Positions 14,069-17,414 of a stretch of 64,000 nt of DNA are shown one piece after another (position 1 is the stretch's first letter; every line of letters starts with the position of its first letter). Position numbers and translations under genes: made by a program. The stretch spans positions 62,001 to 126,000 of the forward strand of contig NZ_JABJXS010000006.1 in the NCBI RefSeq assembly GCF_013155275.1. The letters run 5' to 3'. Source of the DNA: Brenneria sp. hezel4-2-4 (GTDB lineage: Bacteria; Pseudomonadota; Gammaproteobacteria; Enterobacterales; Enterobacteriaceae). The notes beneath the pieces were generated by a model. It made no database searches, had not been told where the DNA came from, and saw only the letters and a program-made list of their open reading frames with translations.

Positions 14069-14082
14069 CGGAGTCATTGGGT

Positions 14083-14526
14083 ATGCATTTTTCCCCAACA
14101 TCACGGTTACGCAGCGCAACGGCGGATACGTTCGCCTTGGTTATTTACTGCTTCATTACCGGTATGGTGATTGAGATCGGGCTTTCAGGCATGAGTTTTG
14201 AGCAGTCTTTCTCTTCGCGTCTGCTGTCTATTCCGGTCAACATCGTCATTGCCTGGCCCTATGGTATTTATCGTGATCGCGTACTCAGCTTCGCCAAACG
14301 CCATGGCCCAAGACACTTTTTAGCACGCAACCTTGCCGATCTGTTGGCATACGTCAGTTTTCAGTCTCCGGTTTATGCCGCCATTCTTTGGACTATCGGG
14401 GCTGATTCAGCGCAAATACTGACCGCCGTTACCAGCAATGCGGCGATCTCAATGGCGATGGGTGTGCTATATGGGTATTTTCTGGAATATTGCCGCCGGT
14501 TATTCCGGGTCGCCATCTCCGGGTAA
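14083..14526 (+). CDS. alaE: L-alanine exporter AlaE
   Basis: Small inner-membrane exporter that removes excess L-alanine. The 147-residue product aligns along its length with E. coli Ala[66 protein letters not shown], and a terminal [12 protein letters not shown]. Four hydrophobic segments are evident. The ATG at 14083 is preferred over the upstream TTG at 14077 because a CGGAG Shine-Dalgarno (14069-14073) is 9 nt from the ATG. In E. coli alaE lies elsewhere, so its place between mraZ and cra is a relocation. Confidence 0.93.
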
Positions 14527-14549
14527 CGGCCGTTACCCTCGGATATATA

Positions 14550-15071
14550 TCACTCTCGGGATAGGGTTTTCCGGCGCAATTTGGCAAGCTGCGTCATGAG
14601 GCGACCACGCTTCAGGCCGGACAGATTATCGATAAGCGATCGCCCATCCAAATGATCGATTTCGTGCTGTAGGCACACGGCCAACTCACCGCCCGCTTCA
14701 ATTTCCTGCTTCGCGCCATCCAGATCGAAAAAGGAGACCGTCACCCGTTTTGCCCGCTCCGCCGGCATTGGGTGGTCAGGAATAGAAGAACACAGTTCCA
14801 GATGCGCCGTTTTCTCTTCTGAATATTGAGTTATTTGCGGGTTAATCAACGCCAGACGCTGGCGTTTTCCCTGTTCGTCGGCCATATCGATCGCCACAAT
14901 ACGCTGCGGAATGCCAAGCTGGATCGCGGCAAGCCCCGAGTCTTTCATCGCATCAATCACGGCAAACATACGCGCCACCACCGCTTTAACGTTATCATCA
15001 ATGGTTTCGACGTCGCGGGAAACCTGATTCATCCGCCGATCGTCGATCCATAGCACATCAGTTGCGTCCAT
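14550..15071 (-). CDS. Divergent peptide deformylase homologue
   Basis: Peptide deformylase fold metalloenzyme homologue of 173 residues. Motif 1 is SGLAAIQLG (canonical GxGLAAxQ; residues 45-53). Motif 2 is ELCSS instead of EGCLS but keeps the metal-ligand cysteine C94. Motif 3 QHEIDHLDG keeps H136, E137 and H140. The metal site therefore looks intact while the substrate-pocket Gly and Leu of motif 2 are replaced. The ATG at 15071 has a GGAGAG site 5 nt upstream; a longer reading frame to 15158 is not needed. It overlaps the end of the helicase gene by 14 nt, so the two are probably co-translated. It is not the housekeeping def, which sits by fmt in enterics. Confidence 0.85.
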   Translation of the reverse strand: MDATDVLWIDDRRMNQVSRDVETIDDNVKAVVARMFAVIDAMKDSGLAAIQLGIPQRIVAIDMADEQGKRQRLALINPQITQYSEEKTAHLELCSSIPDHPMPAERAKRVTVSFFDLDGAKQEIEAGGELAVCLQHEIDHLDGRSLIDNLSGLKRGRLMTQLAKLRRKTLSRE

Positions 15072-16311
15072 TATTCTCTCCGTTAATACCTGTCTTTTGC
15101 TGTAGCGACATAAGCTTTGTGCGCAGCTTTTCATCATGCGCGTAGAGGTAGAGACCATAAATGGCCCGAGTCATCAGCACATTGATGGCGTTAAGCATAA
15201 TGCGCACCTTCACCTCATCAACGTTATCCACCTGGGATTGCCCCTGAAAGGCCGCGCTGTCTTCATATTCAGCAGGATTGAGGGCAATCTCCCCGCGGCG
15301 ATCATCCCACGTCACCGACGGCCCCAGAATCAGGCCGACATAGTTCAGGTCAAATCCCTGAACGGTGTACACCGAACCAACTTCATCTATCGTGTCTGCG
15401 CGCTCCGCCCAGGGCAATCGCTCGGTGGGTTTCGAGCGATCCCAGCGCAGGCGGAATTTCCCCTCTTCAATAAAATAATCCTGCCCGTCCAGCCGATAGG
15501 GATAGTCATAGGTTGACAGCATTCGCGCCAGACCGCCGGAAGCGTTTTTATCTTTTATTACTTCATACATAGCCTGCGCATCATCAAATATCCTGATGTC
15601 GAAAGCCTGTTCCCTGCCGGAGGTATTGGTTGATGGCAAAGGCAGCAGCCTGCGCTGACAAAAACAACGGATCCAGTGTTGCGTTGCCGCATCGGCCCGC
15701 ATTCTGAACTGATGGCGCAGCACGTGGACCTCATGCGGCCAGCGGGCCATGATGCGCGACAGATCGCTTTCACGCCACAGGCTCTTGAATTTCAACACCT
15801 GCTGTTCATCAAAAACCAATACCACGATACGGGCCAGGCGAATAATCTCATCCAGATGATTATCCTGAAAAAAATGATTATACCTATCGCGCCGGGTCAG
15901 CAGCAGATGCGCTTCGTCAACCAGAACGATATCGGCCCTTGAACCGCGTTTATCCATTCGGTTGATAAAGGTGGTTGGCCGCTCATAATCTTTTTTTCTC
16001 AGGCCGGGCTGATTATCCGTCGCATTTTTATAGGCTTTAAGCATTTCGGGATGGTTGACGAGCAAATAGTTTTCGCTGCCATAAAGAGGATGCTGCGGCC
16101 GCAGGCGGGCACGGGTTTGCAGGTCGCAAAATAGGTTATTCAATAAAACGCTTTTGCCGGTTCCGGCTTCGCCGTGGATAACAAAGAAAGCATGGGTATC
16201 CTGTGCGTGCGCGTTCAGGAAGTCCTCGACGCTGCGCTTTAAAATATGCTGTTCATGCGAAAGGTTTTTTTCTGGCGATAGTTTGAAGCTGGCCTGATTA
16301 ATGTCTGACAT
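15058..16311 (-). CDS. DUF2075 / Schlafen-group-3-type P-loop helicase
   Basis: Superfamily 1-like ATPase of 417 residues. Walker A is GEAGTGKS (47-54), Walker B is IVLVDEAHLLL (128-138), a motif III-like VFDEQQVL lies near 167, then RHQFRMR, SVYTVQGFDLNYVGLILG (motif V-like) and VLMTRAIYGLYLY (motif VI-like). This order is that of DUF2075 proteins, which are related to the helicase half of Schlafen proteins. No nuclease domain is fused. The start at 16311 has no obvious Shine-Dalgarno. It is paired with the deformylase homologue by a 14-nt overlap. The biological role is unknown to me; defence or translation-linked stress are guesses. Confidence 0.8.
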   Translation of the reverse strand: MSDINQASFKLSPEKNLSHEQHILKRSVEDFLNAHAQDTHAFFVIHGEAGTGKSVLLNNLFCDLQTRARLRPQHPLYGSENYLLVNHPEMLKAYKNATDNQPGLRKKDYERPTTFINRMDKRGSRADIVLVDEAHLLLTRRDRYNHFFQDNHLDEIIRLARIVVLVFDEQQVLKFKSLWRESDLSRIMARWPHEVHVLRHQFRMRADAATQHWIRCFCQRRLLPLPSTNTSGREQAFDIRIFDDAQAMYEVIKDKNASGGLARMLSTYDYPYRLDGQDYFIEEGKFRLRWDRSKPTERLPWAERADTIDEVGSVYTVQGFDLNYVGLILGPSVTWDDRRGEIALNPAEYEDSAAFQGQSQVDNVDEVKVRIMLNAINVLMTRAIYGLYLYAHDEKLRTKLMSLQQKTGINGENNGRN

Positions 16312-16366
16312 GTTAACTGACTGATTTATTAAGAATTCAGATTCTGCGTCTTTTCAATTGCAAGCA

Positions 16367-16394
16367 GGCGCCATACGTTTCGGTCATATGGCGC
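16367..16394 (-). terminator. Inverted repeat after cra, possible terminator
   Basis: GCGCCATA and TATGGCGC arms (about 16368-16375 and 16387-16394) flank an 11-nt loop just past the cra stop. On the minus strand no strong U-run follows, so termination is uncertain; it could also be an mRNA 3'-end-stabilising hairpin. Confidence 0.45.
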
Positions 16395-16409
16395 AATAAA
16401 AGCGAGAAG

Positions 16410-17414
16410 TTAACGCCGACTGAGCGAACCCCGGCGATAAAGGTTACGGCGAATACGGTTAAGCCCCGGTTTCGGCCTGTTGGGTTCATCCAGACTCGCC
16501 AGCACCAGTTCCAGCACCCGTTCAGCCACCTCACGATGGCGCTGAGCGACAGACAAAACCGGGCATTCCAGGAAATCCAGCAGCTCATTATCGCCAAAGG
16601 TGGCAATCGCCAGATTACTCGGCAGCCGCCCGCTCTGCTTCAGCGTGACATCCATTACGCCCTGTAAAAGGGAGAAAGAGGTGGTGAATAGCGCTTTGGG
16701 CATAGGATGGTGCTTAAGATACTCGGCAAATACCCCTGCCGCCGCTACACGCTCATAGCTATTGGCATACAGATAATGCACTTCCCGCGGATCGCCGGCC
16801 CAGGCCTGACGAAACCCCTGTTCACGCAGGAAACTGACGGAAAGTTCCGGCAACGCGCCCAGATAAAGAATGGATTCCGCCGGCACTTTTCGGAGTTCTT
16901 GCGCCAGCATTTCAGCATCTTCAAGATCGGCGCCCACCACGCTGGTGAAGTGCTCACGATCCAACGCCCGATCCAGAGCGATAATAGGCAAGCCATCTCT
17001 CGCCCAACGCTGATAAAACGGGTGCTCAGGCGGTAATGCCGTTGATACGATGATCGCATCGACCTGACGCTGCAACAGATGTTCGATGCAGCGCATTTCG
17101 TTGTCCGGTTGATCTTCAGAACAGGCAATCAGCAGTTGATATCCGCGTTGCCGCGCCTGACGCTCCAGATAATTGGCAATCCGCGTGTAGCTGGTATTTT
17201 CCAAATCGGGAATAACCAAGCCAATAGAGCGCGTGCGTCCGGCACGTAATCCAGCGGCGACGGCATTGGGATGATAATTGTGCTCCCTGACCACGGCCAT
17301 GACTTTCTCAACGGTCTTATCGCTGACGCGATACTGCTTGGCTTTGCCGTTGATCACATAGCTGGCGGTAGTGCGTGAAACACCCGCAAGACGCGCGATT
17401 TCATCCAGTTTCAC
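16410..17414 (-). CDS. cra: Catabolite repressor/activator Cra (FruR)
   Basis: LacI/GalR-family regulator of carbon flux that responds to fructose phosphates. The 334 residues have an N-terminal helix-turn-helix ([20 protein letters not shown]) and hinge helix ([15 protein letters not shown]), both essentially identical to E. coli Cra, followed by the periplasmic-binding-like effector domain. It carries its own upstream region after the ilvH terminator. Cra target genes elsewhere would include glycolytic and gluconeogenic operons; nothing in this window can be shown to be a target. Confidence 0.98.

Follow-up and report, generated by a model that had tools for sequence, protein, structure and literature searches.

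Peptide deformylase (PDF) is a target in antibiotic development, and more than one PDF is present in 48% of the bacterial species surveyed (PMC12690207). A conserved partner gene offers a handle on the role of these extra copies. The PDF described here resembles the accessory PDFs, such as Vibrio cholerae Def2, which lowers actinonin susceptibility, and the integron PDFs, in being additional to the housekeeping def, patchily distributed, and changed at inhibitor-contact residues (PMC12690207). It differs from them in its ELCSS motif, in the replacement of R97 by Pro, in its overlap with a helicase gene, and in its surroundings, where no integron or biosynthetic cluster was seen.

That helicase shares its domain with the Schlafen group 3 (SLFN-g3; DUF2075, PF09848) helicases of Bacillota, but these occur alone or fused to GIY-YIG, with no PDF in the flanks examined. 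Its SF1 helicase fold (model pLDDT of 74) is reminiscent of mammalian SLFN11 and SLFN14, although it lacks the SLFN core nuclease and UvrD scores higher. The defense proteins Nhi and AbiO show partial similarity over the helicase, while the protein studied here has no nuclease part, low scores, and no defense context. The pair is carried by some plant-associated bacteria. A full-text literature search, with preprints outside its scope, returned no report of a DUF2075/SLFN-g3-PDF pair or of helicase-gated control of protein N-terminal processing.

An accessory two-gene unit between cra and alaE

In the window (the whole 64,000-nucleotide stretch of Brenneria sp. hezel4-2-4 DNA that was analyzed), two minus-strand genes encode a helicase of 417 amino acids and a divergent PDF of 173 amino acids (Table 1). 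The preliminary description of the two genes was borne out as to their identity, coordinates, and overlap. On the minus strand, cra is followed after 98 nt by the helicase gene and the overlapping PDF gene, beyond which alaE lies on the plus strand. The longest PDF frame begins at 15158; we took 15071 as the start, since a ribosome-binding site (GGAGA), inside the 3' end of the helicase gene, precedes it. A similar site is found ahead of the PDF in the relatives compared.

Table 1. Features of the helicase-PDF locus in the window
Feature	Position	Strand	Basis
SF1 helicase/ATPase, Schlafen group 3 (SLFN-g3, DUF2075)	15058..16311	-	Pfam PF09848, SF1 motifs, fold match
Divergent PDF	14550..15071	-	Pfam PF01327, kept metal ligands, predicted structure
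14-nt overlap between the helicase gene (3' end) and the PDF gene (5' end)	15058..15071	-	Sequence
Helicase stop codon	15060-15058	-	Sequence
Gap from cra stop to helicase, 98 nt, with palindrome GCGCCATA...TATGGCGC	16312..16409	-	
cra (LacI family), flanking core gene	16410..17414	-	
alaE (L-alanine exporter), gene flanking the pair opposite cra	14077..14526	+	Pfam

Among nine Brenneria genomes, the helicase and the pair-type PDF are present in the same four and both are absent from the remaining five, each of which has a single PDF match of the ordinary def type. In all five pair-less congeners, cra and alaE are direct neighbors with no gene between them. Since alaE adjoins cra there too, the accessory stretch is limited to the pair itself. 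An accessory patch between mraZ and cra had been proposed; the accessory character holds (4/9 congeners), while the location is corrected to the interval between cra and alaE. G523, one of the pair-less genomes, has a shortened alaE whose ORF spans 80 aa (L058:1190-1432).

A palindrome resembling that of the 98-nt gap also follows cra in the five pair-less congeners, so that insertion of the pair probably took place on the downstream side of the palindrome. The terminator scan scored no T-tract terminator at this palindrome, and the promoter and terminator scans of positions 14400-16600 gave one prediction each, fewer than the averages of 1.9 and 2.4 obtained with shuffled sequence. Ten upstream regions, inspected by eye, displayed no operator common to Brenneria, Lonsdalea, and genome G087 ahead of the helicase gene. 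The GC3 of the pair (0.58-0.60) is like that of five neighboring genes (0.56-0.65), a resemblance that makes recent acquisition from a distantly related genome less likely.

Whether the two genes are conserved as a pair was a check suggested at the outset, and the answer is clear: the PDF gene adjoins the helicase gene, at -14 to +22 nt, in 11/11 genomes with a close helicase (>70% identity), namely, the genome of the window, G518, G519, G521, Brenneria sp. 4F2 (L008), G087, G117, G595, G665, G724, and L012. No genome among these 11 has the close helicase without the PDF. The 14-nt overlap is found in the window and in the L029, L005, and Lonsdalea loci; the helicase ends earlier in L030, L008, and L031, leaving gaps of 2, 22, and 21 nt, respectively. 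The gene order in Brenneria sp. 4F2 is the same as that in the window.

Seven of the 392 family genomes gave a helicase match, six of them close (the genome of the window, G087, and four Lonsdalea genomes) and the seventh (G035) weak and broken. A search of genome contigs also retrieved Brenneria sp. 4F2, four Lonsdalea genomes (L009-L012), and two Listeria genomes. Three of these Lonsdalea genomes (L009, L010, and L011) agree in coordinates with G595, G117, and G665, respectively, and were counted once among the 11. Beyond the genome of the window, the 369 class and 299 phylum genomes contained no close helicase relative, only matches of 25-38% identity. The pair had no blastn match among 20,395 E. 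coli records, and neither protein had a phage or plasmid carrier at an identity of at least 60% (50,697 phage and 72,556 plasmid records).

Nei-Gojobori dN/dS values, which are rough since many dS values exceed 1, were 0.069-0.197 for the PDF (36 comparisons of nine sequences, one of them helicase free) and 0.065-0.149 for the helicase in 27 of 28 comparisons, the last one being saturated. These low values indicate that both genes are under purifying selection and look functional. The two genes make up a genuine accessory unit that is under selection. Chance neighborhood was also considered and is ruled out by the conservation of order, strand, and close spacing in 11/11 genomes, together with the dN/dS values.

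A deformylase with an intact metal center and changed pocket residues

The PDF matches Pfam PF01327 (E value of 1.6e-41; 141.9 bits versus a cutoff of 22.8) and passes the TIGR00079 deformylase equivalog (129.8 versus 103.95 bits), but it misses the narrower NF001159 cutoff (118.5 versus 125). Its AF2 model (pLDDT of 91.5) displays the standard PDF fold, including the C-terminal helix, and the E. coli PDF 1xen is the structural match of rank 4 (TM of 0.87/0.91, rmsd of 2.0). This helix (residues 152-172) is basic and kept, with invariant K/R residues; that of E. coli PDF docks on the ribosome.

Pocket positions are compared using E. coli PDF numbering, I44 and L91 being counted among the pocket residues of that enzyme. 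Residues Q51, C94, H136, E137, and H140, equivalent to E. coli Q50, C90, H132, E133, and H136, are kept and do not vary among the 10 of 11 pair PDFs that were aligned, nor does any part of motif III (QHEIDHLDG), along with the metal ligand C94. In the same 10 proteins, motif I reads DSGLAAIQ and motif II reads ELCSS, not EGCLS. The exact motifs are inessential for PDF activity, according to PMC12690207. E. coli I44, I86, E87, G89, L91, and R97 are replaced by S45, H90, L91, L93, S95, and P101, again invariant in 10/10, and the position of L125 holds E or A; four of these E. coli residues (I86, E87, R97, and L125) have been tied to actinonin binding (PMC12690207). The alignment thus shows a metal center that is intact and residues of the predicted substrate/inhibitor pocket that are changed. 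In six canonical PDFs from other gammaproteobacterial families, position 97 is Tyr (five proteins) or Phe (one protein); since Arg97 is missing from ordinary PDFs too, its loss is by itself no mark of resistance.

Relatives of this PDF extend beyond the pair. Eight genomes in the family search (392 genomes, apparently the same set as that used for the helicase) encode a PDF of at least 60% identity, six with the helicase and two (G677 and G666) without it. Both helicase-free PDFs share ELCSSIP. The G677 gene lies directly after a GFA-family (formaldehyde-activating) gene, downstream of frmR-, frmA-, and gfa-like genes (L121:8370-9574), and that of G666 overlaps the end of a YycE-like gene of the glyoxalase fold (L122:7625-8564); gfa and YycE were assigned by Pfam, and the frm names come from ORF reading. 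The existence of these genes indicates that the PDF can work without a helicase partner. In the class search (274 genomes), the matches at threshold besides that of the genome of the window (6/274) were EGCLS enzymes.

These neighborhoods bear on two other explanations. The two genes may have no functional relation, having moved together on one occasion and been retained for separate reasons, a proposal with which the different PDF neighbors (a formaldehyde-detoxification-like set ending in gfa in G677, the YycE-like gene in G666) and the occurrence of the helicase alone in two Lactobacillaceae records agree. Against it, the pair is kept in 11/11 genomes over three sites, the ribosome-binding site is conserved, most share the 14-nt overlap, and no close helicase was seen alone; we regard separate functions as unlikely. 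The PDF could also hydrolyze a different formyl or acyl adduct, for instance one arising from aldehyde stress, and play no part in N-terminal processing. The helicase-free member located after frmR-, frmA-, and gfa-like genes and the changed pocket positions point in this direction, but this is a single such neighborhood and none was seen at the pair loci, making an adduct hydrolase improbable.

Two genomes of genus g99 encode a PDF relative of 43% identity in which QHEXDH has become QHTLDH, the catalytic Glu being gone and the ORFs intact. In a tree of 34 PDFs, for which a long-branch warning applies, the 14 ELCSS-type and g99 sequences form one group (support of 100/99) on a long stem (1.42); the pair PDFs appear as a single clade in 14% of 200 bootstrap trees, so that their own grouping is unsettled. 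A sister group without the catalytic Glu suggests that the wider PDF clade tolerates noncatalytic roles. The two QHTLDH proteins (L123:6366-6869 and L126:6709-7212) are apparent pseudoenzymes, and their genes adjoin a GIY-YIG (Cho-like) gene.

The PDF-like protein may be no enzyme at all, serving the helicase instead as a metal-containing subunit with a regulatory or scaffold function. The altered motifs I and II (10/10), the sister group that lost the catalytic Glu with its ORF intact, and the long, well-supported stem would fit such a subunit. The metal ligands and the catalytic Glu, however, are kept in all 10 aligned pair PDFs, and the presence of this PDF type in two genomes devoid of the helicase indicates that it is not bound to it; a scaffold role is therefore rather unlikely. 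If inactive, the window PDF would represent a PDF fold turned regulatory subunit.

The helicase lineage and the genomic sites of the pair

The helicase domain (PF09848; E value of 2.2e-105, 353 bits versus a cutoff of 24) covers residues 41-393 of the 417. It carries the SF1 motifs GEAGTGKS and VLVDEAH, which we take to be Walker A and Walker B, together with HQFRM, TVQGFDLN, and LMTRA, and the alignment shows the SF1 motifs to be conserved from Lactobacillaceae to the pair clade. The model of the protein (pLDDT of 74, pTM of 0.77, built from seven sequences) matches UvrD (VIA-align Z of 20.6), HelD (17.9), SLFN11 (17.8), and SLFN14 (17.1); the model being moderate, these matches support an SF1 helicase but no finer placing. 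A sequence search of the PDB with the helicase gave no match.

Pfam detected neither the Schlafen N-terminal core nuclease domain nor a nuclease domain of any kind in the protein. The tRNA-cleaving part of Schlafens is this N-terminal core. The preliminary description had reasoned from the restriction of viruses by Schlafens; since the protein holds the helicase half only, this argument fails to carry over, and Schlafen-like tRNA restriction was rejected.

The nearest helicase relatives outside the family are found in Bacillota (36-53% identity), including L. curvatus (53%), L. fermentum (45%), Listeria (49%), and Enterococcus (40%). No PDF was found near SLFN-g3 loci outside the clade (0/19, with flanks of 0.04 to 6 kb and the helicase ORF unrecovered in L043). 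Six of these 19 distant loci were scanned by Pfam, and 5 of 36 plasmid records with helicase relatives were inspected. All six scanned relatives possess an N-terminal GIY-YIG domain, just below the Pfam cutoff in two, whose region matches the candidate defense family PDC-S14 in 6/6, and two of the six also have a LexA/S24-like domain. An N-terminal extension as large as GIY-YIG is missing from the L. curvatus and L. fermentum proteins. In a midpoint-rooted tree of 16 helicases, the PDF-paired clade (100/99) groups with these two extension-less proteins (96/95), a topology that fits loss of the nuclease before gain of the PDF partner.

L041 and L016 combine GIY-YIG (just below the Pfam cutoff), SLFN-g3, and LexA/S24-like domains and are possible damage-sensing nuclease-helicases. 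The Listeria riparia GIY-YIG-SLFN-g3 homolog (L014:5035-6585) is split over frames by an apparent frameshift. On an L. plantarum plasmid (L035:1853-12276), a GIY-YIG-SLFN-g3 gene is accompanied by pyrophosphohydrolases, a DEAD/DEAH helicase, and DUF2357, which may form a defense cluster.

The pair occupies three chromosomal sites, where its neighbors are metabolic or cell-division genes. Besides the Brenneria site between cra and alaE, it is flanked in Lonsdalea by a NicO-like gene on one side and a histidine-phosphatase gene on the other, and in G087 by genes for a periplasmic binding protein and a MetE-like protein. Reading the ORFs of the three sites by eye revealed no integrase or transposase beside the pair, and a look for boundaries or repeats around it revealed nothing resembling element ends in the window or in the Lonsdalea stretch. 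PADLOC 2.0.0 (2023) matched 0/10 nearby proteins chosen from the three sites and gave no hit for the PDF or alaE. The helicase itself displays partial similarity to Nhi (2.1e-9, residues 19-256), AbiO (3.2e-7), and PDC-M16A (5.9e-6); these matches are partial, and no known anti-phage component set of PADLOC 2.0.0 was recovered. In G087, a DUF559 (endonuclease-like) gene is located about 1.7 kb from the pair (L080:5866-6231), and a run of GC-rich palindromic repeats of about 67 nt lies upstream of it (L080:9799-10117). A repressor-like ORF with a helix-turn-helix look, as judged by eye, is found about 5.6 kb from the Lonsdalea pair. A defense island around the pair received no support from the neighbor reading and PADLOC.

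These observations address the proposal that the pair forms an anti-phage or anti-plasmid module, in which the helicase would sense or unwind foreign nucleic acid and the PDF-like hydrolase would act as the ribosome effector. The GIY-YIG, PDC-S14, and LexA/S24-like features of the scanned relatives, the partial similarity to Nhi, AbiO, and PDC-M16A, the patchy presence of the pair, the neighborhood of the L. plantarum relative, and the DUF559 gene of G087 would be in line with such a module. Conversely, no PADLOC family covers the PDF, alaE, or the 10 nearby proteins, no mobile genes were seen by eye beside the pair, the helicase has no nuclease domain, the E. coli records gave no blastn match, and all phage and plasmid matches were below 60% identity. 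A defense role is not supported by this evidence, which leaves it some room, and we consider it an unlikely one. The defense role first envisaged finds no backing in the PADLOC results, in the lack of integrases and transposases, or in a PDF clade that includes helicase-free members in two genomes; a link to translation through the PDF may nevertheless exist. It had also been anticipated that the idea of a system would fail if most homologs of either gene occurred alone, or if the pair lay in core positions with no defense or mobile context; solitary homologs exist in part (the Bacillota helicases and the PDF of two genomes), and neither context was found at the three sites.

Possible role of the pair and a PDF-inhibitor-type cluster

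The explanation that we favor, tentatively and with low confidence in the mechanism, is that the window encodes an accessory deformylase whose specificity for substrates or inhibitors has changed and which is coupled translationally to an SF1 motor. The unit would be a compact accessory operon, composed of an SF1 helicase without a nuclease domain and a paralogous type 1 PDF with a remodeled pocket. The PDF product may be a functional hydrolase; its C-terminal helix, basic and conserved, would anchor it to the ribosome, and it would assume the deformylation of normal or altered N termini when the housekeeping Def is inhibited or insufficient. In the same response, the helicase would provide an ATP-driven step on nucleic acid (mRNA or DNA), the helicase:PDF ratio being fixed by translational coupling. 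PDF inhibitors or other translation stress in plant-associated communities, and not phage, would be the likeliest selective force.

An accessory deformylase is suggested by the fixed order and spacing in 11/11 genomes, the purifying selection, the kept catalytic residues next to a changed pocket, the PDF fold, the TIGR00079 score, the kept C-terminal helix, and an inhibitor-type cluster in the same genome. Several points stand against it: it is hard to see what the helicase would contribute to inhibitor resistance, R97 is also absent from ordinary PDFs, the g99 sister group has no catalytic Glu, the pair does not track the inhibitor cluster, and helicase-free PDFs exist. Were the window PDF truly inhibitor insensitive, it would represent a naturally occurring variant whose motif II is unusual. 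The pairing points to a role for some accessory PDFs in a nucleic-acid-linked response, beyond a simple backup of def.

A bolder version of this relationship, which we think has little chance of being correct, is that a Schlafen-type helicase line, having lost GIY-YIG, adopted the PDF as its effector; N-terminal processing would then be under helicase-gated control, with a nucleic-acid trigger leading to the rewriting of nascent N termini at the ribosome.

The cluster mentioned above is located on contig C10 of the Brenneria genome of the window (L135:926-15030; L127). It encodes a nonribosomal peptide synthetase (NRPS) of 563 aa, a polyketide synthase (PKS) of 1851 aa, an NRPS of 2048 aa, a third PDF, which has Tyr at position 97, and a methyltransferase. 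A Vibrio cluster of the same makeup is reported to have a product that blocks PDF (PMC12690207), and by analogy the Brenneria NRPS-PKS-NRPS-PDF-methyltransferase cluster possibly makes a PDF inhibitor and carries its own resistance PDF. Since this third, inhibitor-cluster type of PDF is present only in the genome of the window (1/9 congeners), the pair does not track the cluster, and the cluster does not explain the pair. The same contig also bears a type II CBASS (L136:4252-8912), with patatin phospholipase, cyclase, E1-E2, and JAB genes.
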